Below, in pieces: positions 1 through 60,185 of a stretch of DNA of 64,000 bases. Both the position numbers and the translations under genes were made by a program. The stretch is taken from the NCBI RefSeq assembly GCF_051622035.1, contig NC_135359.1, positions 31,525,501 to 31,589,500 on the forward strand. Reading direction: 5' to 3'. The stretch is from Arctopsyche grandis (lineage: Eukaryota > Arthropoda > Insecta > Trichoptera > Hydropsychidae). Each line of letters begins with the position of its first letter. The stretch's first letter is position 1. The notes under the pieces are model-generated. The model was not told the origin of the DNA. It did not search any database and saw only the letters and a program-made list of their open reading frames with translations.

Positions 1-1060
1 TGCTGTCACCTGCAGGTCAGTGACAGTTACTTTTTTTTAACCCTATGCTGTATCATTGTTCTCAGGTATCATTACAACCTACCTTTTTCATTTGCAGGTT
101 ATGAAAGGTGACAGCTTACCAGATGTTATGTGTCTTTCGTGTGTCAAAAGTCTGGTATCGTTGAGCAGTTTTCGAGACATCTGTCTTAAAAGTGACGAAA
201 TGTCGAAACTGAGATTAAACGATTGTCCGAAAATCAAGCCGGAAGAAGTCATATTGGAAGATTTAATATGGGAGGATGTTACTTCGTCTGGTAACAGAAC
301 AAAAACGGTACATGATATTGAAACTCCACCGACAGAATCTCTATTACCAAAAGCTGCAGATGAAATATGCTCCACACATTCTGAATCAAGTCATGAAATT
401 AATTCCCTAGATCCGTCTGTCCCTATGTTTGGATTACAGTTAACACAACAAAATCGTACACCTTTTGAATGTGGCGTTTGTTTGAAGTCGTTTACTTTAA
501 AACCCAGCCTTGTGAGACATTCCAGAACTCATATGGGGGAAAAGCCATTTAAATGCGACATTTGTTCAAAATCTTTTACTCGTCAATATAGCCTTGCAGT
601 ACATTTGAAATCTCACACTGAAAAAAACCCGCATAAATGTAACATTTGTTTAAAAATATTTACACAAAAAGACGATCTTGTTATGCATCGGAAATCTCAC
701 CCTATCGTCCAACCGTTCAAATGCGACATCTGTTCAAAATCTTTTACTCGTAAATACGGCCTTACAATACATTCGAAATCTCACACTGGAAACAACCCGT
801 ATACATGTAACGTTTGTTTAAAAACATTTCCCGTAAAAAATTATCTTAGACGACATTTGGAATCTCACTCTGGTGACAAGCCGTATAAATGTGACATTTG
901 TTTAAAAACATTTGCTGCAGAAACTTACCTTAAACAACATTCGAAATCTCACTCTAAAGATAAACTGTATCAATGTGATATTTGTTTAAAATCATATACA
1001 CGAAGAGGTAATCTACCAAGATATCATGTATGTACCAACACGTATGAAGTTTCACACTGA
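1..1060 (+). CDS. ZAD-C2H2 zinc-finger protein A (5' end outside window)
   Basis: Likely nuclear DNA-binding transcription factor of the insect ZAD zinc-finger family. The window opens in the last 15 nt of exon 1 (encoding CCHLQ). An 82-nt intron (16-97, gt...ag) is followed by exon 2 at 98-1060 with 320 codons; the join is phase 0. Exon 2 opens with the second half of the ZAD (GDSLPDVMCLSC), then a linker with the motif ILEDLIWED, then six canonical C2H2 fingers with linkers such as MGEKPFKC. A seventh finger has its first histidine out of place (PRYHVC) and may not fold. The start codon lies to the left, by analogy with paralogue B. The reading frame upstream of 98 is intron, not protein. 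A and B are a tandem pair with introns of equal length. Family confident; DNA target unknown. Confidence 0.85.
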
Positions 1061-1140
1061 GCCATACAAATGTAACATTTGTTCAAAACCATTTCTTCAT
1101 AAGTGGATTCTTGGTGAATACATGAAATCTTATGCTTGAA
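1061..1140 (+). pseudogene. Decayed terminal finger of gene A
   Basis: Just past the stop of gene A, another frame reads EPYKCNICSKPFLHKW, an evident C2H2 finger start, and ends at a stop near 1138. It is a former last finger cut off from the gene by a frame change. Gene B has the same relic in the same place, so the loss probably predates the A/B duplication. Confidence 0.6.
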
Positions 1141-1287
1141 TTAAATTGCACAAGTTTTTCATTTGCTTAACCGTTTGCCCGCGGTCGTCTTCTATGGTAG
1201 CTTTGCGCGACAAGTCTGTAGCGCGGCTGTTGATTTCATATTTCAATTTTCTAAATTCAAGACAATTTCTTTCTGCCAATCCATTTT

Positions 1288-1503
1288 CTACCTTCTATTT
1301 TTCCCATGGTTATCAAACGGAGACATTCGTATTTTGGACCCCGTATCATGTGTGTGAGTAACAAGTTGCCTAGCTCTCCCTATCATGTCGAGGACAGCTT
1401 CATTTGATACTGTTTTGGTCCACGGCATCTTCAGCATACGCCTGTAGACCCAAACAAATTTTAAAAATACATGAAAAAACTGATTGTCATTGTGAAATTT
1501 CAT
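1288..1503 (-). mobile_element. LINE reverse-transcriptase C-terminal scrap
   Basis: The minus strand encodes a segment with YRRMLKMPWT and NEAVLDMIG. This matches the region past the RT fingers and palm in RTE/CFDP2-like insect LINEs (general form RRMLRI-W---NEEVL). It is only about 70 codons, with no RT active site and no ends seen, so it is a 5'-truncated or internal relic. The same protein region occurs in a longer copy at 21890-22350. Confidence 0.55.
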
Positions 1504-1960
1504 AATATATAATTTTGTAATTAAAAATATTTTATGTAATAAATATGTTTATATATTTTTTATAATTCCTGTTCCCTTGATTCAAAAGTCACCGAAAGTT
1601 ATATACCGAAAATAAAATGCTGGTCATTTAATTTGTTGGCAAATTCAAATAACCTTTGTATAAATGTACATTGTAATCAGGTAATATAAAATAATAATAA
1701 TAAAAATAAAGGTGCAGCAAACTAGGCACATGCCTAGGGCCCCCATTTTTCTTTTTTATTTTATATTGAAAAAATAAAAAAATAAATTTGGCTTTCTTTG
1801 AACTTACAAAATATTCCATATTCAACTAATGGAAGTAACAATACTGATTGCAAAATATTATATTTTACGAGGCACGCAGGAAGTTGACTGTCAAATATCA
1901 ACGAATCACGAATACAACTTGTAAAACAGCAAACTGTAATTTGGAATTGTATTTTATATA
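1504..1960. other. AT-rich spacer, nothing recognised
   Basis: AT-rich sequence with short A and T runs. I see no convincing coding segment; the open frames on both strands lack domains. Confidence 0.5.
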
Positions 1961-1964
1961 AAAC

Positions 1965-2962: not shown

Positions 2963-4016
2963 ATGGAGTGCAGACTTTGCCTTTGTTCTGTTTCTGCCGA
3001 GTCTTCCGTCTCCATCCATGACGACCCTCATCCACTGGTGCAACGCATTTGGACCTGCTGTCACCTGCAGGTCAGTGACAGTTACTTTTTTTTAACCTTA
3101 TGCTGTATCATTGTTCTCAGGTATCGTTACTACCCACCTTTTAAATTTGCAGATTTCGAAAGATGACAGCTTACCGGATATTATGTGTCTTTCGTGCGTC
3201 AACAGTCTGGAGTCATTGAGCGCTTTTCGAGATGTCTGTCTTCAAAGTAACGAAATATCAAAACTAAGGTTAAGCGAGCGTTCTAAAATCAAGCCAGAAG
3301 AAGTCATACTGGAAGATTTAATATGGGAGGATGGCACTTCGTGTGATAACAAAACAAAAATAGTAGATGATATTGGAACTACACTGGCAGGACCTCCGTT
3401 AACGAAAACTCCAGATAAAATATGCTCCACACATTCTGAATCAAGCCATGAAATTCATTCTCCAGACCCGTCTTTACAATTGCAACAAAAAAATCGTACA
3501 ACATTTGAATGTGGCGTTTGTTTAAAATCGTTTTGTTCAAAGCCTAGCCTTGTGAGACATTCGAGAACTCATACAGGGGAAAAGCCATATAAATGTGAAA
3601 CTTGTTCAAAATCTTTCACTCGTCAATATAACCTTGCTTTACATTTGAAATCTCACACTAGGGAAGAGTCATATGAATGTGACATTTGTTTAAAAACATT
3701 CACACATAAAGGTAATCTCGGCACACATAGGAAATCTCACACTGTAGTCCAACCGTTCAAATGTACCGTTTGCTTAAAATCTTTCACTCGTCAATATGGC
3801 CTCACGGTACATTTGAAGTCTCACACTGGAGACAACCCGTATAGATGTGACATTTGTTTAAGAACATTTGCTATAAAAAATTATCTTAGACGACATTTGA
3901 AATCTCACTCTACTGAAAAACTGTATAAATGTGATATTTGTTTAAAATCATATACACGAAGAGGTCATCTACCAAGATATCATGTGTGTACCAACACATA
4001 TGAAGACTCACAATGA
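2963..4016 (+). CDS. ZAD-C2H2 zinc-finger protein B
   Basis: Two-exon gene. Exon 1 is 2963-3070 (36 codons from MECRLCLCSVSAESS), the intron is 3071-3152 (82 nt, gt...ag), and exon 2 is 3153-4016; phase-0 join, 323 residues. The ZAD has CxxC at C3/C6 and a second CxxC in DIMCLSC just after the splice. A linker holds ILEDLIWED. Five canonical C2H2 fingers follow, and a sixth is degenerate (PRYHVC). The ATG was chosen because MECRLCL is the family start, seen again in C, D, F, H, I and J. Expected role: nuclear DNA binding with ZAD-mediated dimerisation. Tandem sister of A, with identical intron length and near-identical intron sequence. Target unknown. Confidence 0.88.
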
Positions 4017-5749: not shown

Positions 5750-5835
<86 letters not shown>

Positions 5836-5873: not shown

Positions 5874-5874
5874 A

Positions 5875-6142
<268 letters not shown>

Positions 6143-11235: not shown

Positions 11236-13411
11236 TTACCCAGTGTGAGTTCTTAAATGTCGCACAAGTGCATTTTTTCGAATAAATGATTTTAGACAGA
11301 TTTCACACCTGTAAGGCTTTTCCCCCATGTGAGTTAACAAATGTGACACAAGTTGATCTTTACGAACATATGATTTTAAACAAATGTCACATTTATGTGG
11401 TTTTATCCCAGAATGTAATTTTTCATGTGACACAAGGTAAGATTTTAGAGAAAATGATTTTAGACAAATTTCACACTTGTAAGGCTTTTCCCCCGTGTGA
11501 GTTCTCAAATGATAAAAAAGTGAATTTTTTCGAAATGGTTTTAAACAAATTTTACATTTGTGTGGTTTTATCCCAGCATGCATTTTTTTATGTTTCTCGA
11601 GGCTAGATTTGTCAGTAAATGATTTTAGACAAATCTCACACTTGTAAGGCTTTTCCCCCGTGTGAGATCTTAAATGTCTGACAAGTTGATCTTTACGAAT
11701 AAATGATTTTAAACAAATGTCACATTTGTGTAGTTTTAGCCCAGCATGTAATTTTTTATGTTTCTCGAGGTAAGATTTTTGAGTAAATAGTTTTAAACAA
11801 ATTTCACACATGTAAGGCGTTTCCCCCGTGTGAGTTCTTAAATGTATCACAAGTTCTCTTTTACGAACATATGATTTTAAACAAATTTTACATTTGTGTG
11901 GTTTTATCCCAGCATGCATTTTTTTATGTTTCTCGAGGCTAGATTTGTCAGTAAATGATTTTAGACAAATTTCACACTTGTAAGGCTTTTCCCCAGTGTG
12001 AGATCTTAAATGTATCAAAAGTGTATTTTTTTGAGTAAATGATTTTAGACAAACTTCACACTTGTAAGGCTTTTCCCCCGTGTGAGTTCTTAAATGTATC
12101 ACAAGTTGATCTTTACGAAAAAATGATTTTAAACAAATGTCACATTTGTGTAGTTTTAGCCGAGCATGCAATTTTTTATGTTTCTCGAGGTAAGATTTTT
12201 CAATAAATGATTTTAGACAAATCTCACACTTGTAAGGCTTTTCCCCAGTGTGAGATCTTAAATGTATCAAAAGTGTATTTTTTTGAGTAAATAATTTTAG
12301 ACAAACTTCACACTTGTAAGGCTTTTCCCCCGTGTGAGTTCTTAAATGTATCACAAGTTGATCTTTACGAAAAAATGATTTTAAACAAATGTCACATTTG
12401 TGTAGTTTTAGCCCAGCATGCAATATTTTATGTTTCTCGAGGTAAGATTTTTCAATAAATGATTTTAGACAGATTTCACACCTGTAAGGCTTTTCCCCCG
12501 TGTGAGTTCTCAAATGTGACACAAGTTGATCTTTACGAACATATGATTTTAAACAAATGTCACATTTATGTGGTTTTATCCCAGAATGTAATTTTTCATG
12601 TGACACGAGGTGAGATTTTCGAGAAAATGATTTTAGACAAATTTCACACTTGTATGGCTTTTCCCCCGTATGAGATCTCGTATGTCTCACAAGTATATCT
12701 TTATTAATAAATGATTTTAAACAAATGTCACATTTGTATGGCTTTTCCCCCGTGTGGGATCTCAAATGTATCACAAGAGTATTTTTTCGAATATATGATT
12801 TTAAACAAATGTTACATTTGTATGGCTTTTCCCCCGTGTGAGTTCTTAAATGTCCCACAAGTATATTTTTATAACTAAATGATTTTAAACAATAGTCACA
12901 TTGAAACCGCTTTTCTCCAGGATGAGATATTTTGTGTAAAATAAGTTCAGATTCACTGGGAAATGGCTTCAAGCAAATGTCACTATCCTTTCGGTGAATT
13001 GTCGATTGTGAAGGCTCCTCGTCCCATATTAGATCTTCCAAGAAAACTTCTTCAGTCTTGATGTTCAAGCAATCAGCTAACCTCAGTTGAGACGTTTCGT
13101 GGCTTCGAAAACAAGCCTTTCGAAAGCTGATCAACGATTCGAGATTGGTGTTACACGAAAGACACACCGTGTCTGGCAACCCATCGCCTCTTTTAACCTG
13201 CAGATCAAATGAAAAAAACAATAGGATTGAGCGGTGAGAAGAGTCAGGAGAACCAATTGGGTCCACAACAGTATTGTAACCAGTAACGTACATAAATCTG
13301 ACAGCCGGTCCGAATGCGTTGCTCCAGACGCTCTGGATGAGGACCTGGTCTCTGGAAGATGGAGACGGAAGACTCGGCCGGAGCTGATCCAAGACAAAGC
13401 CTGCACTCCAT
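11236..13411 (-). CDS. ZAD-C2H2 zinc-finger protein C, 20 fingers
   Basis: Exon 1 is 13292-13411 (40 codons, MECRLCLGSAPAESS...), intron 13198-13291 (94 nt, donor GTACGT, acceptor CTGCAG), exon 2 11236-13197; 693 residues. The ZAD has C3/C6 and a second CxxC in DTVCLSC. The linker holds FLEDLIWDEEPSQS. A first finger-like unit lacks its first Cys (DSDICLKPF). Twenty C2H2 fingers follow, mostly alternating the linkers TGEKPY and AGIKPH; one (HKCKICLKPFRKNS) is a residue short. A long open frame continues upstream of 13197, but that part is intron read in a different frame from exon 1. Expected to be a nuclear, sequence-specific DNA binder; with 20 fingers it could contact a long site. Neighbouring TEs flank both sides. 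Confidence 0.88.
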
Positions 13412-18326: not shown

Positions 18327-20518
18327 ATGGAGTGCAGGCTTTGTCTCGGATGGAGTACTCCGGCCGACTCTTCCGTCTCCATCTTCCAGAGACCAGGTCC
18401 TCATCCAGAGCGTCTGGAGCAACGCATTCGGACCGGCTGTCAGATTTATGTAGGTTACTGGTTACTGTTGTGGACCCAATTGGTTCTCCCGACTCTTCTC
18501 ACCGCTCAATCCTATTGTTTTTTTCATTTCATCTGCAGGTTAAAAGAGGCGATGGGTTGCCAGACACGGTGTGTCTTTCGTGTAACACCAATCTCGAATC
18601 GTTGATCAGCTTTCGAAAGGCTTGTTTTCGAAGCCACGAAACGTCTCAACTGAGGTTAGCTGATTGCTTGAACATCAAGACTGAAGAAGTTTTCTTAGAA
18701 GATCTAATATGGGACGACGAGCCTTCACAATCGACAATTCACCGAAAGGATAGTGACATTTGCTTGAAGCCATTTCCCAGTGAATCTGAACTTATTTTAC
18801 ACAAAAGATCTCATCCTGAAGAAAAGCGGTTTCAATGTGATATTTGTTTAAAATCATTTGGTTATAAAAATATACTTGTGGTACATTTAAAAACTCACAC
18901 GGGGGAAAAGCCATACAAATGTGACATTTGTTTAAAATCTTTTACTTATAAATATAAACTTGTGATACATTTAAGAACTCACACGGGGGAAAAGCCATAC
19001 CAGTGTGAAATTTGTCTAAAATCATTTACTCAAAAATCTAACCGCGAGACACATAAAAAAGTGCATGCTGGGTTAAAACCACACAAATGTGAGATTTGTT
19101 TAAAATCATATGTTCGTAAAAATGAACTTGTGTCACATTTGAGAACTCACACGGGGGAAAAGCCTTACAAGTGTGAAATTTGTCTAAAATCATTTATTGA
19201 AAAACGTAGGCTCAATAATCATAAAAAATTGCATGCGGGGATAAAACCACACAAATGTGACATTTGTTTAAAATCATATGTTCATAAAGATCAACTTGTG
19301 TCACATTTAAGAACTCACACAGGGGAAAAGCCTTACAAGTGTGAAATCTGTCTAAAATCATTTATTGAAAAACGTAGGCTCAATAATCATAAAAAATTGC
19401 ATGCTGGGATAAAACCACACAAATGTGACATTTGTTTAAAATCATATGTTCATAAAGATCAACTTGTGTCACATTTAAGAACTCATACAGGGGAAAAGCC
19501 TTACAAGTGTGAAATCTGTCTAAAATCATTTATTGAAAAACGTAGGCTCAATAATCATAAAAAATTGCATGCTGGGATAAAACCACACAAATGTGACATT
19601 TGTTTAAAATCATATGTTCATAAAGATCAACTTGTGTCACATTTAAGAACTCACACAGGGGAAAAGCCTTACAAGTGTGAAATCTGTCTAAAATCATTTA
19701 TTGAAAAACGTAGGCTCAATAATCATAAAAAATTGCATGCTGGGATAAAACCACACAAATGTGACATTTGTTTAAAATCAAATGTTCGTAAAGATCAACT
19801 TGTGTCACATTTAAGAACTCACACAGGGGAAAAGCCTTACAAGTGTGAAATCTGTCTAAAATCATTTACTCAAAAATCTGACCTCGAGAGACATAAACGA
19901 TTACATGCTGAGATAAAACCACACAAATGTGACATTTGTTTAAATTCGTATGTTCGTAAAGATGGACTTGTGATACATTTAAGAACTCACACGGGGGAAA
20001 AGCCTTATAGGTGTGAAATCTGTCTAAAATCATTTACTCTAAAATCTAGCCTCGGAAGACATAAAAAATTGCATGCTGGGATAAAACCACACAAATGTGA
20101 AATTTGTTTAAAATCATATGTTCGAAAAATTGAACTTGTGACACATTTAATATCTCACACGGGGGTAAAGCTATACAAATGTGACATTTGTTTAAAATCA
20201 TATGCTTGTAAAGATAAACTTGTTAAACATTTAAGAACTCACACGGGGGAAAAGCCTTACAAGTGTGAAATCTGTCTAAAATCATTTACTCAAAAATCTT
20301 ACCTCGAGAAACATAAAAAATTGCATGCTAGAATGAAACTACACAAATGTGACATTTGTTTAAAATCATATGTTAGTAAAAAAGAACTTGTGTCACATTT
20401 GGGAACTCACACGGGGGAAAAGCCTTACAGGCGTGAAATCTGTCTAAAATCATTTTCTCAAAAATTTAACCTCAATAAGCATAAAAAATTGCATGCTCAG
20501 ATAAAACCACACAAATGA
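18327..20518 (+). CDS. ZAD-C2H2 zinc-finger protein D, 20 fingers
   Basis: Exon 1 18327-18449 (41 codons, MECRLCLGWSTPADSS), intron 18450-18538 (89 nt, GTAGGT...CTGCAG), exon 2 18539-20518; 700 residues. ZAD CxxC pairs as in the paralogues, linker [14 protein letters not shown], degenerate unit DSDICLKPF, then 20 fingers. Fingers 5-12 are four copies of a two-finger module. Finger 3 has Arg for the core Leu, and finger 20 has Arg for its second Cys-pair residue (YRREIC), so the last may not bind zinc. The frame ends AQIKPHK-stop exactly where foreign sequence begins at 20519, so the present C-terminus was made by an insertion. The promoter block is cut away (see 15837-18291). Expected nuclear DNA binder; expression uncertain. 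Confidence 0.85.
19166..19837 (+). repeat. 168-bp two-finger module, four tandem copies
   Basis: Copies start at 19166, 19334, 19502 and 19670. Each encodes a finger with FIEKRRLNNHKKLH and one with SYVHKDQLVSHLRTH; the fourth differs (SNVRKDQ). The near identity at DNA level, including silent sites, shows very recent expansion or conversion. Confidence 0.92.
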
Positions 20519-21226
20519 CGGCCTGAAAACCAGACTGGTACAATCGACAAAAAGATGAACGGGAGATAATCAAATATTTGTGTATATTTTTGAGGATTTG
20601 TATTATAAAATTACTAAAATAAATCTCAACATAGTCCTTACATAATAAAATACTTCTGACATGAAAAGTGCTAAATAAAATAATTATTTATCTCACGAAA
20701 TTAAAAATAAAATCACTTTTACCACTATGACTCGCAAAAATCTAATAATATAAACCACGTGGTTCATAATAATTTAAGATTTTTGGGAATTATAATAAAC
20801 TATTATATAATAACACTGTTCGACAAATGACGACTTTTTTTTGGTTCAGAGATGAGATATGACTTTTCTTATAGATTTATGCCCAGTGAACACGAATCTG
20901 GTAATAAAAAATGTTGATTGGCTCGAGATTCGGAGATATATGTGTTTTATAAATCGCGCGATTCTATTGATAACTGGCTTACCTCGATAAAATAAACGAA
21001 TTTTTGTTATTAATCCACAAGAATGGTCGAAATATGATTTTTATAAGTGGAATTTTATTTAATTCTCATAAAGATAATTTAATATATTATCCCTATTAAT
21101 TGAATTCAGATTCGTGTAAATACGAGTAAACACTAGTACGAGCTTTTTGCTCGCAATTTTACCGATTTAAAGTTCAGCACACTTCCAATTAACCTTTTTA
21201 AACGAAAACAAAAAATAGTGTGGTCA
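20519..21226 (+). mobile_element. Unknown insertion splitting the finger array, shared with F
   Basis: About 700 bp of AT-rich sequence between two finger-coding parts, starting near GGCCTGAAAACCAGACTGG and ending GTGTGGTCAGAAC. The same sequence in inverse orientation lies at 31556-32242 behind gene F. No ends, duplications or domains were recognised with certainty. Confidence 0.55.
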
Positions 21227-21740
21227 GAACATTTAATATCTCACACCGGGGAAAAGCCTTACAAGTGTGAAATTTGTCTAAAATCACTTACTCAAAAACC
21301 TAGCCTCGAGACACATAAAAAATTGCACGCTGGGATAAAACCATACAAATGTGACATTTGTTTATAATCATTTATCCGAAAAGATAAACTTGTGACACAT
21401 TTAATATCTCACCCCGGTGAAAAGCCTTACAAGTGTGAAATTTGTTTAAAATTATTTACTCGAAAATCTATCCTCTGGTCACATAATAAATTATATACTG
21501 GGATGAATATAAAAAAAATTGTTATTATATAAATACTGTTATTATTCTTACATTTTGGCTGCATGCGTGCCATAATGTTTTTGGTGCCCCCTTCTCATGT
21601 CATTTCAGTTCATTTAAATAATTTTAAGAGAAATGATAATTGAAAATTAAATGCACAGATCTATTATTTGGCTTACTTGTTTTATTTATTGGATGAAATT
21701 GTGGTAATTATGATAAACATACTTCATCATCGTAAGCAAT
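21227..21740 (+). pseudogene. Former 3' fingers and 3' UTR of gene D
   Basis: Reads [19 protein letters not shown], then a second finger with an in-frame stop inside (CDICL-stop-SF), then a third, and ends in the family 3' UTR (TTGGCTGCATGCGTGCC, CATGTCATTTCAG, ATTTGGCTTACTTG). Cut off from D by the insertion. The F copy at 31020-31555 has the same internal stop, so the decay predates the D/F duplication. Confidence 0.8.
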
Positions 21741-23429: not shown

Positions 23430-24101
23430 GTGAAGATTTGTGGAAAAAAATGGAAGGCTGCAGGAATGGCGGCGGATGTCCGACGGTCGCTCCCCACCCG
23501 CCAGTGTTTCATCAGGGACCTCTATGAGGGTCTCGAATCTCGCGACGTGGAGGATGCCCTCGTACGGGTCCTTGGCACCAATTGTCGTGAGCAGGTGCGA
23601 GTGCAGAGGCTGCGTCCAGCCTCCGGAGGTACGCTCACCTGCACGGTGACCTTGCCCTGCACCACCGAGACCGACGCGCTGCTCAAGAAGGGTCGCGTAC
23701 GAGTCGGACTCGTCAGGTGCAGGGTAAGAGGAAAAGTAGACCTGCAGCAGTGCTACCGCTGTCGAGCCTTTGGACACATTGCTGCTGGCTGTTCTAATGA
23801 AGATCTAATATGGGACGATGAGCCTTCACAATCGACAATTCACCGAAAGGATAGTGACATTTGCTTAAAGCCATTTCCCAGTGAATCTGAACTTATTCTA
23901 CACAAAAGATCTCATCCTGGAGAAAAGCGGTTTCAATGTGACATTTGTTTAAAATCATATACTCGTAAAAATAAACTTGTGACACATTTAATATATCACA
24001 CGGGGGAAAAGCCATACAAATGTGACATTTGTTTAAAATCATATGTTCGTAAAGATCAACTTGTTAGACATTTAAGATCTCATACGGGGGAAAAGCCATA
24101 C
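23430..24101 (+). pseudogene. Chimaera E, 5' part: LINE ORF1 joined to ZAD-family fingers
   Basis: The frame from 23430 gives about 120 residues of a LINE ORF1 of the R1/Jockey kind: a basic region with [17 protein letters not shown], then a CCHC knuckle [14 protein letters not shown]. At 23799 it passes in frame into the ZAD-family linker ([12 protein letters not shown]), the degenerate unit DSDICLKPF and two full fingers. The ZAD half-domain and its exon 1 are missing. At 24101 a BEL/Pao-like element interrupts the array. The fusion could once have made an RNA/DNA-binding protein; now it is broken. Confidence 0.8.
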
Positions 24102-27100
24102 TGTTCCGACCAAGTCTTCATGGTCAGCTTTCGTGGCGTTACGACCAAAGGAGCCGTTTTGGAGGGAGATCGGCGCCGAGCGCGCGTCCCCGCCTGCTAT
24201 TCGTTTTCCGCTTCGGTCGAGTGAACATCTCTGTTCGCTACCGAGTTTGTTCCCACCACCGAGTCCCGATCAGCTCAGCCTGGATCGGCAGACGATACTG
24301 GAAGTACAGCTTCAGTATACGTCCGGTGAGAAGTGAGGAAATCCTGGTCTTTCTTCGTCGAAGTCAGATCACGTAGTCACGTGAGGAGTGAGGTTATCAT
24401 AACCTCTCGAACACGTGCGCGCTAATTTCACGACGGACTCCCCCCCCCCCCCCTCTGCTTGATCTCTGTATATACATATATATATAAAATACAGTCACCA
24501 TACAAACAGAATTACAACCTGTTTTCATTATTACAATTTCCCCCCTTTTTCCACATCACGCATCCCACGCACATTACGAAGGAGAAAGGGACATAGCAGA
24601 GCAGCCGACATCAGCAGAGACCAGACCACCGACGACGAAGGAAGGCACCTTGAGGAAACCAGCCCCGCCCACGCTTACCACTAGCTATCTCAGAAAACCG
24701 ACTTCGGGGGTGCTCTCGAGTTGAACATCCCTGGAGTTTGTACATTTTGGTCCTTCGATTCCGTATGTCTTCAGAGCTGGTCTTCCAACGTCGTCGAATC
24801 CAGGTTGGTCGTAATTAGCATTTTTCTGTTGTTGTTGCTATTTTTTTGGTCGTCAACGTCCATTTTGTTTTTTCCCGCGTCCATTTTTTCCTTTGTTTGA
24901 TTTCGTCGCATTTCAATAATGGCGTCTTTGAGTACGCTTAAAAATACGCGGAAAAGAATTCGCGCTCGGTTAACGAGAAACGCGAATCAATTGGGGGACG
25001 ATCTGAGCATCCTCGAGCTCAGAATCAGGCTCGAAACAATCAGACCATTACTGTCTGAATTCGAAGCGATCCAAGCTCAGATAAACGAGCTGGACCAAGA
25101 AGAGGCGCAGGCCTCCGAATCCGTCGTGGACCTATTTGATAGGGAGCATATGGCCGCCTTCGTGCGATGCACCGAAGCAATCAATTTGCGTGAGCCGCAA
25201 TTGAGCGCTTCACCGTTAGATGGCGCTAACCTCACAATGTCACCTGTACCGCAATCAAATTCGGCAATAAAATTGCCCCGTTTGGAGTTGCCCACCTTCG
25301 AAGGCAACGTCCAAAATTGGCCGCTTTTTTCACAACGCTTCTTGGCCGCTATGGCCGGCGAGAGTTCGCAAATCGCCCGGTTCCAATACTTACTAGGAAG
25401 CCTAAAAGGAGAGCCCCAACGTTTAGTTGACGGCTTGGAATTAGCTTCAGATTCATTTACGAGCACGTGGTCCATTTTGGATCAACGCTATAACAACAAA
25501 AAAATTGTTGTTCAGTATCACCTTCAGGCATTGCTTGAAGCCGAGCCAGTCGTGAGCAACAATCACGTCAGTCTGCGTCGTCTCATAGATGATGCCAACA
25601 TGCATGTACGTGCGCTCGTTAACTTGGGCGTCCGGGTCGAGACCTGGAACGAGATTCTGGTGATGTTTATCACCAGAAAACTCGACCGGAGTACACTTCT
25701 GCAATGGGAGCTTCAGACTCCCAAGTATGAAGACTGCACGTTTAGCAAAATAATGCATTTTCTAACGTGCCAGTGCCAATCGATGGCAAATGCCGACTTC
25801 GTCTTAAAAGGCGAGTCGAATCCTCGACCAAGAACCATTACGAATCCGAAGGCAGCAGTTCTGCATGTGAAGAGGGAACGCCCCTCCTGCATCAGTTGCA
25901 GCGGAAGTCATTCTCTGCTAGCCTGTCCATCATTCCGCCAAATGAGCGGTGATGAGCGTAGGTCGAACGCCATAAAACGTCGACTATGTCTCAACTGCTT
26001 GAGGCCAGGGCACATAGTTCACGCGTGCCAAACAAAGCAGAGATGCTTCAAATGCGGTCATGCCCATCACACCATGTTACATGACTCAACTCCATACCAA
26101 ACTTCGCCTTCAAATAAGGCCAAACATTATCGGAGCCCCAAGAAATCAGAGAACGCCAAACCCGTAAAATCATCGTTGGTTTTACACTCGGTGAGACGCG
26201 TATCGCCTTCTCACGCCCGAACTGTCCTGTTATCCACCGTGGAAGTACAAGTTCGCGGCGGAGATGGGCGTTCGCACAAGGTTCGAGCATTGTTAGATAA
26301 CGGCTCCGAACTCAACCTCATCTCTGAAGACTTAAGAAGGCGACTCGCCTTAAAGTCGAAAAGGATGGACGTCAACCTGGTAGGAATAGGTTCAAATAGG
26401 ACGTCCATTACTAGTGGCGCGGTAATTCGAATTCTACCGCGCATCCCCAATCAGGGCTCCAGTGTTGATCTCGATTGCGCAATCATGCCCGAGATCGCGA
26501 ATCAACTTCCATCGCGCAACGTGTCCGAGATTCGGAGCCATTTGCCGCTTCATCTCCCCCTTGCCGATCCATCATTCGATATTCCCGGTACAGTGGATAT
26601 GGTGATAGGCAGCGACGCCTATCATGCGATGTTACGCAATGGCAAACGTACCATTTTAGTTCCCTCCAAGTCACGCGGTGACAGAGGAGGACGCATCGTG
26701 ATGATGAATACAGCTTTCGGCTGGATATTGGGCGGCTCTCTAGAAGCGCCCACAGTTTCAAGCGATTCTCGGAATTGCCATCACACAACGGGTCGTGATC
26801 CGTTATCTTGTTTTGGCGCGAGACGTCCAGTCAAGACAGTTACGCGTCCCCTGGACGAATCGCGTATTTCCGCGGTACGAAGATTCCGCTTGCCGAAGCG
26901 CAATGTACCCGCGCCCTTTAACCCTCACATCTTTCGACCTTCCCAACCCAGCTCCCATAACTCCTGGCCAGTTCCTAGTTGGCGCACCACTAGTTGCGCA
27001 ACAGCAGGAGGATCTGGTCGATCAACCCGGAGCGAGGGTGCTACCACACCAGCACATGCAGCAGCGGCCCCTGGCAGACAGGGGCACAGGAGTAGGTCCT

Positions 27101-28302: not shown

Positions 28303-28307
28303 CATAC

Positions 28308-29240
28308 CATTGTGAAATTTGTCTAAAATCATATACTAAAAAATTTACCCTCGATATACATAAAAAAAAGACATGCTGGGATAAAACCACACAACTGTGA
28401 CATTTGTTTAAAATCATTTATTCGAAAAGATAAACTTGTGACACATTTGAGATGTCACACGGGGGAAAAGCCATACAAATGTGACATTTGTTTAAAATCA
28501 TTTGTTACTAAAAAAGAACTTGTGGCACATTTGAGAACTCACACGGGGGAAAAGCCTCACAGGTGTGAAATCTGTCTAAAATCATTTACTCACAAATGTA
28601 GCCTCGAGACACATACAAAATCGCATGCTGGGATAAAACCACATAAATGTGACATTTGTCTAAAATCATTTACTCACAAATGTAGCCTCGAGACACATAC
28701 AAAATCGCATGCTGGGATAAAACCACACAAATGTGACATTTGTTTAAAATTATTTTCTCGAAAATTTAACCTCACGTCACATGAAAAATTGCATTCTGGG
28801 ATAAAACCACATAAATGTGACATTTGTTTAAAATCATATGTTCGTAAAGATCAACTTGTGTCACATTTGATATCTCACACGGGTGAAAAGCCTAACAAGT
28901 GTGAAATTTGTCTAAAATCATTTACTCTAAAATCTAACCTCGAGAGACATAAAAAATTGCATGCTGGGATAAAACCACACAAATGTGAAATTTGTTTAAA
29001 ATCATTTATTTATAAAGAAGAGCTTGTATCTCATTTGAGATCTGACACGGGTGAAAAACCTTAAAAGTGTGAAATCTGTCTAAAATCATTTACTCAAAAA
29101 TCTGGCCTTGAGACACATAAAAAATTGCATTCTGGGATAAGACCACACAAATGTGACATTTGTTTAAAATCATTTATTCGAAAAGATAAACTTGTGATAC
29201 ATTTGAGATCTCACATGGGGGGAAACGCCTTACAAATGTG
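28308..29240 (+). pseudogene. Chimaera E, 3' part: finger array
   Basis: Continues E on the far side of the retroelement, starting HCEICLKSYTKKF. A frameshift in an A run near 28366 breaks the first finger. From 28438 to 29064 the frame is intact and gives seven fingers, two of them a fresh 84-nt duplication (THKCSLETHTKSHAGIKP twice). At 29062-29064 a Tyr codon has become TAA; two more fingers remain readable beyond it to about 29218. With no ZAD, a retroelement inside and several breaks, it is a pseudogene. Confidence 0.85.
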
Positions 29241-32242: not shown

Positions 32243-34023
32243 TCATTTGTGTGGTTTTATCTGAGCATGCAATTTTTTATGTCCCTCGAGGTCAGATTTT
32301 TGAGTAAATGATTTTAGACAGATTTCACACTTGTAAGGCTTTTCCCCTGTGTGAGTTCTTAAATGTGACACAAGTTGATCTTTACGAACATATGATTTTA
32401 AACAAATGTCACATTTGTGTGGTTTTATCCCAGCATGCAATTTTTTATGCATATTGAGGCTACATTTTTGAGTAAATGATTTTAGACAGATTTCACACCT
32501 GTAAGGCTTTTCCCCCGTGTGAGTTCTCAAATGTGCCACAAGTTCTTTTTTAGTAACATATGATTTTAAACAAATATCACATTTGTATGGCTTTTCCCCC
32601 GTGTGACATCTCAAATGTGTCACAAGTCTATCTTTTCGAATAAATGATTTTAAACAAATGTCACATTTGTGTGGTTTTATCCCAGTATGCAATTTTTTAT
32701 GTGACGCAAGGTTAGATTTTTGAGTAAATGATTTTAGACAGATTTCACACCTGTAAGGCTTTTCCCCCATGTGAGATCTCAAATGTGACACAAGTACATC
32801 TTTACGAACATACGAATTTAAACAAATGTCACATTTGTGTGGTTTTATCTCAGCATGAAATCGTTTATGTCTCTCGAGGTAAGGTTTTTGAGTAAATGAT
32901 TTGAGACAGATTTCACACTTGTAAGGCTTTTCCCCCGTGTGAGTTCTCAAATGTAACACAAGTTCTATTTTACAAACATATGATTTTAAACAAATGTCAC
33001 ATTTGTGTGGTTTTATCTCAGCATGCAATTTTTTATGTCTCTCTAGACTAGGTTTTTGAGCATATGATTTTAGACAAATTTCACAATGGTATGGCTTTTC
33101 CCCCGTGTGAGATCTTAAATGTATCAAAAGTGTTTCTTTTTTAGTAAATGATTTTAAACAAATGTCACATTTGTATGGCTTTTCCTCCGTGTGAGATTTT
33201 AAATGTCTCACAAGTTGATCTTTACGAATATATGTTTTTAAACAAATGTCACATTTGTGTGGTTTTATCCCAGCATGCAAGTTTTTATGATTATTGAGGC
33301 TACGTTTTTCAATAAATGATTTTAGACAGATTTCACACTTGTAAGGCTTTTCCCCCATGTGAGTTCTTAAATGTATCACAAGTTTATATTTATAAGCAAA
33401 AGATTTTAAACAAATGTCACATTTGTATGGCTTTTCCCCCGTGTGAGTTTTTAAATGTACCACAAGTATATTTTTATAACCAAATGATTTTAAACAAATA
33501 TCACATTGAAACCGCTTTTCTTCAGGATGAGATCTTTTGTGTAAAATAAGTTCAGATTCACTGGGAAATGGCTTCAAGCAAATGTCACTATCCTTTCGGT
33601 GAATTGGCGATTGTGAAGGCTCATCGTCCAATATTAGATCTTCCAAGAAAACTTCTTCAGTCTTGATGTTCAAGCAATCAGCTAACCTCAGTTGAGACGT
33701 TTCGTGGCTTCGAAAACAAGCCTTTCGAAAGCTGATCAACGATTCGAGATTGGTGTTACACGAAAGACACACCGTGTCTGGCAACCCATCGCCTCTTTTA
33801 ACCTGCAGATGAAATGAAAAAAACAATAGGATTGAGCGGTGAGAAGAGTCGGGAGAACCAATTGGGTCCACAACAGTATTGTAACCTATAACCAGTAACC
33901 TACATAAATCTGACAGCCGGTCCGAATGCGTTGCTCCAGACGCTCTGGATGAGGACCTGGTCTCTGGAAGATGGAGACGGAAGACTCGGCCGGAGCTGAT
34001 CCAAGACAAAGCCTGCACTCCAT
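32243..34023 (-). CDS. ZAD-C2H2 zinc-finger protein F, 15 fingers
   Basis: Exon 1 33904-34023 (40 codons), intron 33803-33903 (101 nt, GTAGGT...CTGCAG), exon 2 32243-33802; 559 residues. ZAD with both CxxC pairs, linker FLEDLILDDEPSQS, degenerate DSDICLKPF unit, then 15 canonical fingers. It ends AQIKPHK-stop at the inserted sequence, like D. An upstream ATG at 34093 opens another frame that runs through exon 1 and the intron and joins the finger frame if the intron is kept; the spliced ZAD form is taken as the real product because it restores the domain. F and D are an inverted pair about 10 kb apart. Expected nuclear DNA binder. Confidence 0.87.
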
Positions 34024-37849: not shown

Positions 37850-38262
37850 TGGATTTGACATGAAAGGGGGGCACCAGAAACATCATGGCACGCATGCAGC
37901 CAAAATGTAAGAATATTTATACAATAACAATTTTTTTTTATATTTATCCCAGTATGCATTTTATTGTGACCAGAGGGTAGATTTTAGAGTAAATAATTTT
38001 AAACAAATTTCACACTTAGGCTTTTAGCCGGTGTGAGTTCTTAAATGTCCCACAAGTGCATTTTTTCGAATAAATGATTTTAGACAAATTTCACATTTGT
38101 AAGGCTTTTCCCCCGTGTGAGTTCTCAAATGTGACACAAGTTGATCTTTACGAACATATGATTTTAAACAAATGTCACATTTATGTGGTTTTATCCCAGA
38201 ATGCAATTTTTTATGTGTATCGAGGCTAGATTTTCGAGTAAATGATTTTAGACAGATTTAGA
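37850..38262 (-). pseudogene. Gene G: 3' end of a ZAD-family finger gene
   Basis: Minus-strand remnant with two full fingers ([28 protein letters not shown]), the family HTG-stop, a cut-off finger and part of the 3' UTR (GGCTGCATGCGTGCC). Its 5' side ends inside a finger at about 38262, directly joined to the promoter block of gene H in head-to-head orientation. Confidence 0.85.
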
Positions 38263-38311: not shown

Positions 38312-40114
38312 ATGGAGTGCAGGCTTTGTCTTGGATCAGCTCCGGCCGAGTCTTCCGTCTCCATCTTCCAGAGACCAGGTCCTCATCCAGAGCGTCTGGA
38401 GCAACGCATTCGGACCGGCTGTCAGATTTATGTAGGTTACAGGTTATAATTACAGCATACTCTCGATTATCCGGTTTGCGGATTAGCCGTGCTTGAAAAA
38501 TAGTAATTATTTAAATTGATTTAATTTCTTTCTTATATGCTTATGAGACGCACCGATTGATTGCGATCGTAAACACGCCTATTATTTGAACAAATTATGT
38601 CACACACACAGGTTACAGGTTACAATACTGTTGTGGACCCAATTGGTTCTCCCGACTCTTCTCACCGCTCAATCCTATTGCTTTTTTCATTTCATCTGCA
38701 GGTTAAAAGAGGCGATGGGTTGCCAGACACGGTGTGTCTTTCGTGTAAGACCAATCTCGAATTGTTGATCAGCTTTCGAAAGGCTTGTTTTCGAAGCCAC
38801 GAAACATCTCAACTGAGGTTAGCTGATTGCTTGAACTTCAAGACTGAAGAAGTTTTCTTGGAAGATCTAATATGGGAAGACGAGCCTTCACAATCGACAA
38901 TTCACCGAAAGGACAGTGACATTTGCTTGAAGCCATTTCCCAGTGAATCTGAACTTATTCTACACAAAAGATCTCATCCTGGAGAAAAGCGGTTTCAATG
39001 TGACATTTGTTTAAAATCATATATTCGAAAAAATACTCTTGTGATACATTTGAGATCTCACACGGGGGAAAAGCCTTACAAGTGTGTAATTTGTCTAAAA
39101 TCATTTACTCTAAATTCTAGCCTCAAGAAACATAAAAAATTGCATGCTGGGATAAAACTACACAAATGTGACATTTGTTTAAAATCATATGTTCATAAAA
39201 ATGAAGTTGTGTCACATTTGAGATCTCACACGGGGGAAAAGCCATACAAATGTGAAATTTGTCTAAAATCATTTCGTCTTAAATCTACCCTTGAGCAACA
39301 CAAAAAATTACATACTGGGATAAAACCACACAAATGTGACATTTGTTTAAAATCATTTATTCAAAAACCTACACTTGTTAGACATTTAAGAATTCACACT
39401 GGGGAAAAGCCTTACAAGTGTGAAATTTGTCTAAAATCATATCCTCAAAAATCTTACCTCAAGAAACATAAAAAATTGCATGCTAGAATGAAACCATACA
39501 AATGTGAAATTTGTTTAAAATCATATGTTCATAAAAATGAACTTGTGTCACATTTGAGATCTCACATGGGGGAAAAGCCATACAAGTGTGAAATTTGTTT
39601 AAAATCATATGTTCATAAAAATAAACTTGTGTCACATTTGAGATCTCACACGGGGGAAAAGCCATACAAGTGTGAAATTTGTCTAAAATCATTTCCTCTT
39701 AAATCTACCCTTGTTAGACATTTAAAAATTCACACTGGCGAAAAGCCTTACAAGTGTGCAATTTGTCTAAAATCATATGCTGAAAAATCTTACCTCAAGA
39801 AACATAAAAAATTGCATGCTGGAATGAAACCACACAAATGTGACATTTGTTTAAAATCATATGTTCATAAAAATGAACTTGTGTCACATTTGAGATCTCA
39901 CACGGGGGAAAAGCCATACAAGTGTGAAATTTGTCTAAAATCATTTCCTCTTAAATCTTCCCTTCAGAATCATAAAAAATTACATACTGGGATAAAACCA
40001 CACAAATGTGACATTTGTTTAAAATCATTTAATCAAAAAATTACACTTGTTAGACATTTAAGAATTCACACTTACAATGCACTTGTGGGACATTTCAGAA
40101 CTCACACCGGGTAA
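38312..40114 (+). CDS. ZAD-C2H2 zinc-finger protein H, 13 fingers
   Basis: Exon 1 38312-38431 (40 codons, MECRLCLGSAPAESS), intron 38432-38701 (270 nt), exon 2 38702-40114; 510 residues. The intron is longer than the usual 88-101 nt because of an insertion of about 170 bp beginning near AATTACAGCATACTCTCG. ZAD intact (second CxxC in DTVCLSC), linker FLEDLIWEDEPSQS, degenerate DSDICLKPF, 13 canonical fingers, then half a finger (NALVGHFRTHTG) lacking its Cys pair before the family stop. Three fingers carry the near-identical SYVHKNELVSHLRSH. The promoter carries antisense finger DNA (see finding). A Tc1 element sits in the 3' flank. Confidence 0.87.
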
Positions 40115-45701: not shown

Positions 45702-46792
45702 ATGGAGTGCAGGCTTTGTCTTGGATCAGCTCCGGCCGAGTCTTCCGTCTCCATCTTCCAGAGACCAGGTCCTCATCCAGAGCGTCTGGAGCAACGCATT
45801 CGGACCGGCTGTCAGATTAATGTAGGTTACTGGTTACAGGTTACAATACTGTTGTGGACCCAATTGGTTCTCCCGACTCTTCTCACCGCTCAATCCTATT
45901 GTTTTTTTCATTTCATCTGCAGGTTAAAAGAGGCGATGGGTTGCCAGACACGGTGTGTCTTTCGTGTAACACCAATCTCGAATCGTTGATCAGCTTTCGA
46001 AAGGCTTGTTTTCGAAGCCACGAAACGTCTCAACTGAGGTTAGCTGATTGCTTGAACATCAAGACTGAAGAAGTTTTCTTGGAAGATTTAATATGGGACG
46101 ACGAGCCTTCACAATCGACAATTCACCGAAACGATAGTGAAATTTGCTTAGAGCCATTTCCCAGTGAATCTGAAATTATTCTACACAAAAGATCTCATCC
46201 TGGAGAAAAGCGGTTTCAATGTGACATTTGTTTAAAATCATATATTCGAAAACAGTCAGTTGTGATACATTTGAAATCTCACACGGGGGAAAAGCCATAC
46301 AAGTGTGAAATCTGTCTAAAATCATTTCCTCTTAAATCTACCCTTTTTAGACATTTAACAATTCACGCTGTGGAAAAGCCTTACAAGTGTGAAATTTGTT
46401 TAAAATCATATGTTCATAAACATAAACTTGTGTTACATTTGAGATCTCACACGGGGGAAAGGCCATACAAGTGTGAAATTTGTCTAAAATCATTTCCTCT
46501 TAAATCTACCCTTGTTAGACATTTAAGAATTCACACTGTGGAAAAGCCTTACAAGTGTGAAATTTGTCTAAAATCATATGCTGAAAAATCTTACCTCAAG
46601 ATACATAAAAATTTGCATACTGGAATGAAACCACACAAATGTGACATTTGTTTAAAATCATTTATTCAAAAAACTATTTTTGTTAGACATTTAAGAATTC
46701 ACACTGGGGAAAAGCCTTACAAGTGTGAAATTTGTCTAAAATCATATGCTGAAAAATCTTACCTCAAGATACATAAAAAATTGCATGCTTGA
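45702..46792 (+). CDS. ZAD-C2H2 zinc-finger protein I, 7 fingers, truncated
   Basis: Exon 1 45702-45821 (40 codons), intron 45822-45922 (101 nt), exon 2 45923-46792; 329 residues. Complete ZAD, linker [14 protein letters not shown], degenerate unit with SEICLEPF, then 7 canonical fingers. The frame stops in a linker where GGA has become TGA (46790-46792); further fingers continue in frame beyond. A short ZAD protein with 7 fingers could still work; if not, it is a recent pseudogene. The FB element is immediately upstream. Confidence 0.8.
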
Positions 46793-51614: not shown

Positions 51615-52458
51615 ATGGAGTGCAGGCTTTGTCTTGGATCAGCTCCGGCCGAGTCTTCCGTCTCCATCTTCCAGAGACCAGGTCCTCATCCAGAGCGTCT
51701 GGAGCAACGCATTCGGACCGGCTGTCAGATTTATGTAGGTTACAATACTGTTGTGGACCCAATTGGTTCTCCCGACTCTTCTCACCGCTCAATCCTATTG
51801 TTTTTTTTCATTTGATCTGCAGGTTAAAAGAGGCGATGGGTTGCCAAACACGGTGTGTCTTTCGTGTAACACCAATCTCGAATCGTTGATCAGCTTTCGA
51901 AAGGCTTGTTTTCGAAGCCACGAAACGTCTCAACTGAGGTTAGTTGATTGCTTGAACATCAAGACTGAAGAAGTTTTCTTGGAAGATCTAATATTGGACG
52001 ATGAGCCTTCACAATCGCCAATTCACCGAAAGGATAGTGACATTTGCTTGAAGCCATTTCCCAGTGAATCTGAACTTATTTTACACAAAAGATCTCATCC
52101 TGGAGAAAAGCGATTTCAATGTGACATTTGTTTAAAATCATATATTCGAAAACATACACTTGTGATTCATTTGAGATCTCACACGGGGGAAAAGCCTTAC
52201 AAGTGTGAAATTTGCCTAAAATCATTTACTGAAAAATCTAGCCTCGAAAGACATAAAAAATGGCATGCTGGGATAAAACTACACAAATGTGACTTTTGTT
52301 TAAAATCATTTATTCGAAAAAATTCACTTTTTAATCATTTGAGAACTCACACGGGGGAAAAGCCTTACAAGTGTGAAGTTTGTCTAAAATCATTTACTCT
52401 AAAATCTAGCCTCGATACACATAAAAAATCGCATGCTGGGATAAAACCACAAATGTGA
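51615..52458 (+). CDS. ZAD-C2H2 zinc-finger protein J, 4 fingers, truncated
   Basis: Exon 1 51615-51734 (40 codons), intron 51735-51822 (88 nt), exon 2 51823-52458; 251 residues. ZAD complete (NTVCLSC here for DTVCLSC), linker FLEDLILDDEPSQS, degenerate DSDICLKPF, four canonical fingers, then AGIKPQM-stop. The family reads AGIKPHKC here; loss of two bases in the CACAC run near 52448 shifts the frame. May be a short active protein or a recent pseudogene. Confidence 0.8.
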
Positions 52459-57387: not shown

Positions 57388-57592
57388 GGGTGCATGGTAA
57401 ACGGTACATATGTACTCACGTACATCCTCACTTAATTTGCGCGAGCAGGATACAACAGGAACCAGAGGAACAGGCTTTTCCTCCCGTATTAATGTGCGCG
57501 CGCAGAATACGGGAGGAAAAGCCTGTTCCTCTTGTTCCTGTTGTATCTTGCTCGCGCAAATTAACTGAGTATGTACCGTTTACCATGCACCC
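57388..57592. mobile_element. Hairpin MITE, about 205 bp
   Basis: Left arm 57388-57490 and right arm 57506-57592 are inverted (GGGTGCATGGTAAACGGTAC / GTACCGTTTACCATGCACCC) with the loop AATGTGCGCGCGCAG. The left arm is longer by a small insertion. No coding. Confidence 0.8.
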
Positions 57593-57799
57593 TTTTTTTT
57601 TTGATCTTTCGATTTTCGATCTTTGCCTTCCGATATTTGGTTTTTCGTGCATTTCTAATTCGATCCCGTAAGGTGCACCGACATACTAGATATCTTTACC
57701 AACACGTGAAGTTAAAAAATACATATTTAATACTTTTATATTATTTTTACTTTTTTGTTTATTTTAGGAAAATTTGCCTGTCATAATAACCATTAATTT

Positions 57800-59690
57800 A
57801 CAACATTCCCATGATATGTCGAGAGTGCCGAAGCTCTTACTTCATTAGCTCCGTCTTCTGCCACATTTGATAGATTTCAATGCTATTTTCACAGCAAAAT
57901 GAGTGTGGCAGAAGCAATTCGAGAGCATGCTGCATTTCTTAAATAAGAATTTGGGGATGATGATAAATTAATGGTGAACGGTACATTCAACCCCAAAAGA
58001 AGGACGGTCGCCCATTGACATGAAAAGTGGAAGAAAAATCATTTAGGTGATACAACTGCTTCTGGAATGATCAAGGTAATACAATTTATTGCAATGAACA
58101 TGATACAAGGTTGTGTACATGATAAATTTTGATATTTTTTGTACAGAAAATATATGACACTATTAGCGAAGCGATGGAGAAAGTATAGGGGCTGCGAAGA
58201 TTAAATTCATTGAAGATCCATTCACCGTTTGCATTATGACTCCATTGATGGAAAGAGCTTCAAATTTACAATCAACAAAGGACATAATTTCCATCGACTC
58301 GATTTCATCATGCGATCTGCAGCAAAACACTATCACATTTGTCTTAACTGAAAGTGTGGTAGGTGCTGTGCCGTTAGCTGTCATTATTACCAAAGGGCAA
58401 ACAACTGCCGAGTATTCATCGGCATTTACTCTATTAAAATATTTCTTGGGGGACATACATAAATCCTCGGTATATTATGACCGATGATTCTAATGCCGAA
58501 CGCTCAGCTCTTAGTGGTATTTTTAAGGACTCAAAGCTAGTGTTATGTGCTTTTCATATTTCGCAAGCGGTTTGGACGTGGCTCTGGGATGCTAAATATT
58601 ACATAATTTTTTTAAAAATATACTTATTTCAAGTAGCGAACCTGAAGCCGATATAGCTTTAATTGAGCTCAATAATTCTAGAATATGCCAAAAATACTTA
58701 CAGTGGATTAAATATGTTTAAAAGTATTGGGAACGTAGAGAGAGTTGGTGCTTCGCATATCGAAATCAATTTACACGTGGCAACCAAACAAACAATTACG
58801 CCGAGATAACTGTTCGGATTTTTAAGGACATTGTATTGAATAGATGTAAAGCTTTCAATGCAGTAGACATTATAGGCTATGTTTGCGTTGAAATGAACCG
58901 ATGTGGATATGGAGGACCGATTAATGGATTTCGCACACGGTATAAATGCAGCTAAGAAGCATATTTTAAAACCTCTCACGAAAAAAAATACATATCTCAC
59001 GAAAGACAACATAGTTGAGAGTGATAATGGTTTCGTTTACATTGTCCCCAGTTTAAAAAATCCAAATCTACATAGTATACGAGGTAGATATTAGATTAGA
59101 ATTTTGTACTTGCGATATTGGATATCTAGGAAATATGTGCAAACAGCAAGCTGGAGTCATTGCTTTGTTTCACAATGTTAAAGAAAAGACTCTAGAAAAT
59201 AGATACAGTATTGCAGTATTAGCGTTAGGCGACAAGGCTAACACTAAAGAATTTTATAAACCATTAGAAAAACATCCTAATTTAGAACAGTTTTCATCTT
59301 CATCTTCGACTGACATTCAAAAGCCTTCGTCTTCATATTTCACTTCCATTCAACAGCCTTTAACTTTAAGTGTTCTTATTGAACAGCTTCCTTCCACTTC
59401 AGAATGTATTCACAATATTATTGCCCCTGTACAAGATGATCAGGAAATTTTGAATTTGACCCGAGGAGCTTGTGATAAACTAATTAAAAACTTACCAATA
59501 TATCATTGTAAACAATTTATATCTGAAATTGAAAAATGCAAAAATCCACCAGATTACATAGCAATGGTAGATTGGCTTTCAAAAAGAAAACTAGCTAAAA
59601 AGCACTACAGAGCCCCAATAAACGTTCAACCAACAGCAGTTGCCAGGAGGCGATCTAGCGTTACTACATAGAGGTAACGAAAGACCACAT
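57800..59690 (+). mobile_element. MULE transposon, transposase decayed
   Basis: In order: N-terminal part with EAIREHAAFLK and NGTFNPKRRTVAH...EKW; a likely intron (58076-58146, AAG/gtaat...ttgtacag); then KIKFIEDPFTVCIMTPLM, IDSISSCDLQ, PLAVIITKGQTTAEYSSAF, MTDDSNAERSAL and LCAFHISQAVW, which are the MULE DDE region with the C--H after the second Asp. After 59090, FCTCDIGYLGNMCKQQ is a SWIM-like finger, followed by a Ser-rich tail to 59671. Several stops and frame changes make it inactive. Relatives at 5692, 35741, 36220, 30625 and 62397-63960. Confidence 0.75.
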
Positions 59691-59939
59691 AATTTGGCTG
59701 AAAACATATCATTAAATAGACCTAACGCTGTGTGACATTAATTATTACTCAATAATCATAATCTATGTGTTTTATGCATTTTTTCTTGTTAGCCTTATTG
59801 ATTAAGCAATCTAATATATATCTTGTATATATAGACGTTTAAACAGATCACCTTTTTTTTTCAAAAATTGATACTTTTCGAAAAATTTAATCTTTTGCAT
59901 ATCTTAAATAATATTCACAACTCAAAGCATATTTTTACT
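59691..59939. other. AT-rich MULE 3' flank
   Basis: No recognised feature. Confidence 0.3.
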
Positions 59940-60185
59940 CATCCTACATAATAAATTGTATACTGGTATAAATATAATTTTTTTTTATAAATACTGTTTA
60001 TATTCTTACATTTTGGCTGCATGCGTGCCATGATGTTTCTGGTGCCCCCCCTTTCATGTCATTTCTTCTCATTGCAGTTTATTTAAATAGTTTTAAGAAA
60101 AATGATAATTAAATACACAGATCTATTATTTGGCTTGCTTGTTTTATTTATTGGATGAAATTGAGATAATTTTGGTAAACATACT
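59940..60185 (+). pseudogene. Orphan 3' UTR of a ZAD-finger gene (K)
   Basis: TTGTATACTGGTATAAATAT, TTTTGGCTGCATGCGTGCC, TTTCTGGTGCCCCCC and ATTATTTGGCTTGCTTG match the family 3' UTR, but the sequence to the left is MULE, not fingers. It marks a further gene copy lost to transposon insertion or deletion. Confidence 0.8.

Follow-up and report, generated by a model that had tools for sequence, protein, structure and literature searches.

Whether the ZAD zinc finger (ZAD-ZNF) genes of insects are functional counterparts of KRAB-ZNF genes is an open question, and it is raised by a stretch of 64,000 nucleotides from Arctopsyche grandis (Trichoptera; contig NC_135359.1, here C5, C5:31525501-31589500), hereafter the window, in which ZAD-ZNF copies in different states lie side by side. 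We added to the analysis the next 200 kb downstream and 20 kb upstream, with two 500-N gaps in the added DNA and none in the window, and searched the genome (475.7 Mb, 189 contigs). The ZAD-ZNF cluster is real and reaches past the window edges: six complete copies (C, D, F, H, I, and J; Table 1) lie in the window and nine in the next 200 kb, and each of these 15, the copies having both head exons in the 264 kb, starts with an ATG, is interrupted by a GT-AG intron, and stays open over 4 to 19 canonical fingers. In our reading, to which we give about even chances, this is a rapidly turning-over cluster that encodes a KRAB-ZNF-like repertoire, in which one head (the two ZAD exons, the intron between them, and the linker, about 510 bp) is maintained by conversion while the fingers diversify. 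The positive selection at the base-contacting residues, the homogenized head, and the extent of the cluster go beyond a preliminary description of the window.

The identity of the head could be recognized from the spliced fragment of copy F, which matched the PF07776 profile with an E value of 3.1e-11 and 43.8 bits (cut-off, 28). In this cluster the ZAD is split by the intron, which measures 87 to 101 bp in the 15 copies except H, and both C-x2-C cysteine pairs are kept in the 15 aligned heads; comparison with PDB sequences gave weak matches to 7pok_A (E value, 5e-4) and 7po9_A (E value, 0.008). As is typical of ZAD-ZNF proteins, tandem C2H2 fingers follow the linker at the C terminus in all 15 copies. 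Neither KRAB nor a SET/PR domain was among the Pfam families at an E value of ≤0.01 in the 307-aa F fragment, the sole copy scanned.

In the arrays, two finger types, R and K, alternate (adjacent steps in 15 arrays: R-K, 68; K-R, 61; R-R, 30; K-K, 6), and a period of 168 bp beats one of 84 bp in six arrays of the window (C, E, F, H, I, and J), those with both periods listed by the tandem-repeat finder. The comparison of copies shows that these two-finger 168-bp units vary in number; in particular, D and Q have contact residues that are alike across most of the array, with D longer by two such units. The 216 fingers comprise 180 unique DNA sequences and 119 signatures at the contact positions (-1, 2, 3, and 6), where entropy peaks (3.47, 3.18, 2.99, and 2.81 bits at +3, +2, +6, and -1, respectively); contact residues at the same position agree at a frequency of 0.20, and the 15 copies present 14 different contact strings. 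By parsimony, the contacts underwent 215 replacement and 21 silent changes (nonsynonymous-to-synonymous rate ratio [dN/dS], 2.75), compared to 381.3 and 180.7 elsewhere in the fingers (dN/dS, 0.53) and to 0 and 16 at the zinc ligands. A codon likelihood model written for this analysis and run per finger type gave an omega at the contacts of 2.95 for the K type (72 fingers) and 2.39 for the R type (108 fingers), with about 0.6 elsewhere; the likelihood ratio test of the contact omega against 1 yielded 37.8 and 42.7, respectively (P < 1e-9), and the contact omega was reached by 0 of 1,000 random four-site sets in either type. Furthermore, IQ-TREE partitions gave relative rates (which are not omega values) of 2.54 and 2.36 for the contacts and of 0.74 and 0.77 for the rest. 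The base-contacting positions are under positive selection, and the zinc ligands are unchanged.

The head behaves differently from the fingers. Averaged over all pairs of the 15 copies, exon 1 diverges by 2.5%, the intron by 3.3%, and exon 2 ahead of the fingers by 2.9% (1.5% at four-fold sites), compared to 14% for finger 1 and 24% for each of fingers 2 and 3; at the amino acid level, the ZADs have a mean identity of 0.967, and 5 of the 15 are identical. Instead of homogenization, purifying selection acting on both ZAD and linker could account for such likeness, and the parsimony dN/dS values of 0.75 for the ZAD and 0.39 for the linker, on few changes, would be compatible with it. However, the four-fold sites and the intron are equally alike, and the heads stand 9.6 to 11.7% apart from those of four copies on other chromosomes, whose 3' untranslated regions (UTRs), at 11.0 to 12.7%, are about as distant as the two UTR classes of the cluster are from each other (11.8%). 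These values contradict an origin of the likeness in purifying selection, which we regard as very improbable.

Since the distances of fingers 2 and 3 mix finger types, the 3' UTR, which falls into classes, was taken as the yardstick. Between UTR classes, identity along exon 2 starts at 1.00, declines to between 0.93 and 0.95, and drops to between 0.61 and 0.85 in the fingers, and upstream of the ATG, homology could be anchored in 72 of 105 pairs, where it reached a median of 62 bp at a median identity of 89%. The copies exchange segments, and their head stayed alike while both flanks diverged. There is little correlation between head and UTR distances (rho, 0.24; P = 0.11; 45 pairs among the 10 copies with both parts): the head of F is closest to that of J (1.0%, with UTRs 11.6% apart), the UTR of F is closest to that of D (0.4%, with heads 2.2% apart), and a topology test on the UTR rejects the grouping of F with J (P = 0.006). 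With one gene copy each of contigs C13, C12 (at 24.6 Mb), C7, and C8 as interchromosomal outgroups, the split between UTR classes 1 and 2, expressed as a fraction of the interchromosomal distance, is 0.28 (0.20 to 0.38) for the head and 0.98 (0.77 to 1.23) for the 3' UTR, an order that was reversed in 0 of 400 bootstraps and that holds with each outgroup alone. Moreover, the 12 cluster rows, a copy at 20.9 Mb of C12 among them, form one clade in the head tree (99/99) and do not form one in the best UTR tree. The fingers themselves are arranged in mosaic blocks, as in R, which is closest to Q and D, then to F (99%), then to D/Q (98%), and then again to F (99%); the exceptions are D-Q and S-T, mutual best partners along most of the array.

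We interpret these observations as concerted evolution acting on the head within the cluster, and the agent keeping the heads alike would be non-allelic gene conversion. It is also possible, though less likely in our opinion, that one young head was repeatedly joined by recombination (or duplicated) onto older finger-and-UTR tails, without conversion between residents. The short upstream homology, together with the 27 bp that S and T, alike throughout the gene, have in common upstream of the ATG, speaks for such joining, as it implies that breaks near the gene start are common; on the other hand, exon-2 identity declines gradually toward the fingers (from 1.00 to about 0.95), and the head distances between copies are small and spread from 0.6 to 4.4%, as repeated short conversion tracts would leave. 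Copies S and T (extended coordinates 164082-162569 and 203249-204762) lie in opposite orientations and differ by 0.6% in the head and by 0.0% in the UTR.

With regard to function, the ZAD is a dimerization domain, known for family members, and its deletion abolished binding by Kipferl (PMC9531945). The proteins of the cluster would be dimerizing, sequence-specific DNA-binding proteins recognizing genomic sequences that change, and we infer that transposons or satellites are the likeliest of such moving targets. The one common head would act as the effector, each new finger array providing it with a new specificity, and the gene design fits one effector with many specificities; a constant front combined with selected contacts is the pattern expected of proteins chasing changing DNA targets such as transposons. 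The homogenized head suggests a route by which a repertoire could switch targets and yet keep its effector. It is possible to speculate further, though we deem it unlikely, that exchange keeps the roughly 510-bp dimerization-and-effector head common while upstream DNA, finger number, and contacts diversify, and that the members could heterodimerize because their ZADs are nearly identical, which would multiply the recognizable targets and make of this constant/variable system a combinatorial insect analogue of KRAB-ZNF defense.

The fingers could instead be adapting toward host targets (promoters, insulators, or developmental genes), as in some architectural or developmental ZAD proteins, and not toward selfish DNA. 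This possibility, to which we assign a minor share of probability, agrees with the many host roles of the Drosophila ZAD-ZNFs studied, for which there was one direct transposable element (TE) link at the time of the paper (PMC7655104, PMC9810180), but the recurrent contact change, the turnover of copies, and the 14 contact strings in 15 copies suggest, indirectly, targets that move. Neutral birth and death, with duplicates decaying under relaxed constraint, would explain the breakage of E, G, and K and the shortening of I and J; it is contradicted by the omega values (about 0.6 outside the contacts and above 2 at them, with zinc ligands free of replacements) and by the open frames, since 15 of 15 complete copies are open, whereas in a simulation of substitutions without indels, neutral change at 6.4% left 0 to 13% of copies open, the 15 having been picked for both head exons. 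We give neutral decay hardly any credence. The comparison of contact residues with zinc ligands proposed in the preliminary description gave no uniform purifying selection at the contacts, and its picture of a turnover nursery comparable to KRAB-ZNF clusters is supported by copies in different states, mosaic exchange, array-length change, and contact selection; the arms race that it had also proposed is supported by the selection signature at the contact residues only.

Several points weigh against the reading of a conversion-maintained head with fingers selected toward moving targets. Drosophila ZAD-ZNFs mostly seem not to target transposons (PMC10547256, PMC7655104). In independent close pairs, the omega at the contacts was 1.41 (42 pairs; bootstrap interval, 0.72 to 2.64), 1.28 (56 pairs; 0.83 to 1.92), and 1.50 (66 pairs; 1.06 to 2.10), although choosing pairs by small total distance biases against replacements; the newest changes by themselves do not prove an omega above 1. 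The cluster is, like those of KRAB-ZNF genes, a clustered lineage expansion with contact-residue selection, with this reservation. In addition, tree methods take no account of the recombination that occurs among fingers, and omega is above 1 at some sites other than the contacts (8 and 27 in the R type and 14 and 19 in the K type). The topology conflict between head and tail is moderate, as neither D+F (P = 0.139) nor H+I+S+T (P = 0.427) is rejected by the head, and a single clade of cluster copies is not rejected by the UTR (P = 0.261).

Among known systems, the PRDM9 coding minisatellite shares with the cluster an 84-bp finger unit, array-length change, and diversity of contact residues, but here there is a multigene cluster, the expanding unit is a 168-bp finger pair, and SET was not found in the F fragment. 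The zebrafish FiNZ-ZNF proteins have an N-terminal domain different from ZAD. They resemble the cluster in their clustered expansion, in base-contacting residues that vary, and in positive selection, which in their case concerns some clades; whereas TEs are putative targets in our case, TE repression was shown for them (Wells 2023, PMC10547256). In the same paper, ZNF and TE numbers are uncorrelated in dipterans, and D. melanogaster is a possible exception to variable contact residues. The mammalian KRAB-ZNF clusters and vertebrate poly-ZF expansions (Emerson and Thomas 2009, PMC2604467) present clustering, gain and loss of fingers, and selection at specificity residues as well; KRAB, however, was not found in the F fragment, and the sets of that study had only short gene conversions, which concerned few genes in many sets (most genes in chicken). 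Drosophila ZAD-ZNFs (Kasinathan 2020, PMC7655104; Kipferl, PMC9531945) share the N-terminal ZAD, the linker, the C-terminal C2H2 fingers, local clusters, and gene turnover, but positive selection there affects mainly the linker and not the fingers (PMC7655104), and the present cluster has long arrays of two-finger units and homogenized heads. In the poly-ZF expansions of fly and mosquito, tests for positive selection were negative (PMC2604467, which does not mention ZAD). Given this result and the selection mainly in the linker in Drosophila, the cluster departs from the described insect pattern and resembles vertebrate clusters. A literature search over titles and abstracts, with subscription papers largely outside it, returned none joining ZAD-ZNF clusters with contact-residue selection or homogenized heads; gene conversion was merely mentioned as a possible cause of tree conflict (PMC9810180). 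The strong contact selection found here makes the question of functional equivalence to KRAB-ZNFs directly testable.

Table 1. Copies, remnants, and inserted elements of the ZAD-ZNF cluster in the window (window coordinates)
Feature	Position	Strand	Remarks
Copy A (A/B type)	1..1060	+	Exon 1 end 1-15, intron, exon 2 98-1060; exon 1 start lies upstream of the window
Copy B (A/B type)	2963..4016	+	ATG 2963, donor ~3071, exon 2 from ~3153
Copy C (D type)	11236..13411	-	19 canonical fingers and one degenerate
Copy D, coding part	18327..20518	+	19 canonical fingers and one degenerate; four near-identical two-finger units
Homogenized head, D as example	18327..18835	+	ZAD exon 1, intron, ZAD/linker part of exon 2, to finger 1
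Insertion ending the D frame, also in F	20519..21228	+	
D, orphaned last fingers and class-1 3' UTR	21229..21730	+	
Copy E, part 1	23799..24101	+	Linker and two fingers
Long terminal repeat (LTR) element inside E	24102..28302	+	BEL/Pao-like; DUF1759 and aspartyl-protease-like open reading frame (ORF); LTRs 24102-24744 and 27664-28302
Copy E, part 2	28303..29541	+	Fingers and 3' UTR
Copy F, coding part	32243..34023	-	15 fingers; head J-like, fused to D-like fingers and tail
F, orphaned last fingers and class-1 3' UTR	31042..31543	-	
Copy G	37856..38259	-	Finger and 3' UTR fragment
Copy H	38312..40114	+	13 fingers; enlarged intron (270 bp); class-2 3' UTR 40170-40437
Copy I	45702..46792	+	7 fingers, then in-frame stop; class-2 3' UTR 47246-47512
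Copy J	51615..52458	+	4 fingers, then frame change; own 3' UTR class 52746-52978
K, 3' UTR remnant	59946..60192	+	

The eleven items (A to K) of the preliminary description are all present in the window, including the 3' fragment G and the orphan 3' UTR K, both of which are 3' remnants, and its range of 4 to 20 fingers holds if one includes the degenerate finger of C or of D. The six copies that it had called intact do have the ATG, the GT-AG intron, and an open frame. The frames of D and F stop early at an insertion of about 710 bp common to both, and D and F end at the same residues as L and R, two copies outside the window; copy I has an in-frame stop and J has a frame change with further finger sequence downstream of it, and both are therefore shortened. 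The A/B copies, tried as a non-homogenized control, failed in that role, being likewise more similar toward the 5' end (A-B identity, 0.99 in the first 100 columns and 0.74 to 0.91 in most later ones). A stretch of about 300 bp at 17992-18290, which stops 36 bp short of the D start codon, is bordered by inverted 25-bp repeats (a tandem pair on one side) and looks like a small inverted-repeat element. Upstream, copies H and J have in common a stretch that contains an inverted finger fragment (38204-38441 and 51480-51744; 88.7%), which was therefore in place before their separation or was exchanged between them.

Copy E had been described as a chimaera; it is indeed broken but is really a single copy, 5'-truncated against other sequence, with its finger array split by the 4.2-kb LTR element, which has a CATAC target duplication on both sides. 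The two LTRs are 99.2% identical, and the ORF at 24901-27219, the only one of the element scanned, gave a DUF1759 match, a weak aspartyl protease match, and no reverse transcriptase match in the Pfam scan; the element appears to be young and possibly internally deleted. In the open frame at 23409-24224, a retroelement-like stretch reads through, with no change of frame, to the linker and fingers of E; this stretch returned zero Pfam hits and contains what we take to be a CCHC-like motif. Overall, 5 of the 9 TE-like ORFs scanned matched a TE-type Pfam family at an E value of ≤0.01, and 3 of those 5 (DUF1759, DDE_Tnp_1_7, and SWIM) were above the curated cut-off.

Across the genome, the PF07776 (zf-AD) profile search gave at least 150 hits (150 of 989 candidates scored). 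A 373-bp head probe, made of the D intron and exon-2 head, found 26 places at 95 to 100% identity among the best 40 of 349 candidates, 25 on C5 (17 at 31.54-31.99 Mb, 3 at 29.28-29.30 Mb, and 5 at 33.11-33.14 Mb) and one on C12; the remaining 14 of these 40, at 88 to 92% identity, are on C7, C12, and C5. Upstream of the window lie two more A-type copies, locally identical. The copy at C12:20.9 Mb kept its intron, with a head 3.4 to 3.5% from the cluster classes and a UTR 5.5% from class 2, and looks like a DNA-based copy out of this cluster or the reverse. An Rfam scan of the window gave zero matches at the gathering threshold, and a long (AT)n microsatellite of 189 copies occupies 5750-6127. 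At C13:3510274-3548608, a tandem array has at least 15 UTR hits at a spacing of exactly 2720 bp, with three identical 480-aa ten-finger ORFs within the 9 kb examined, and would reflect either amplification in the very recent past or an effect of the assembly.

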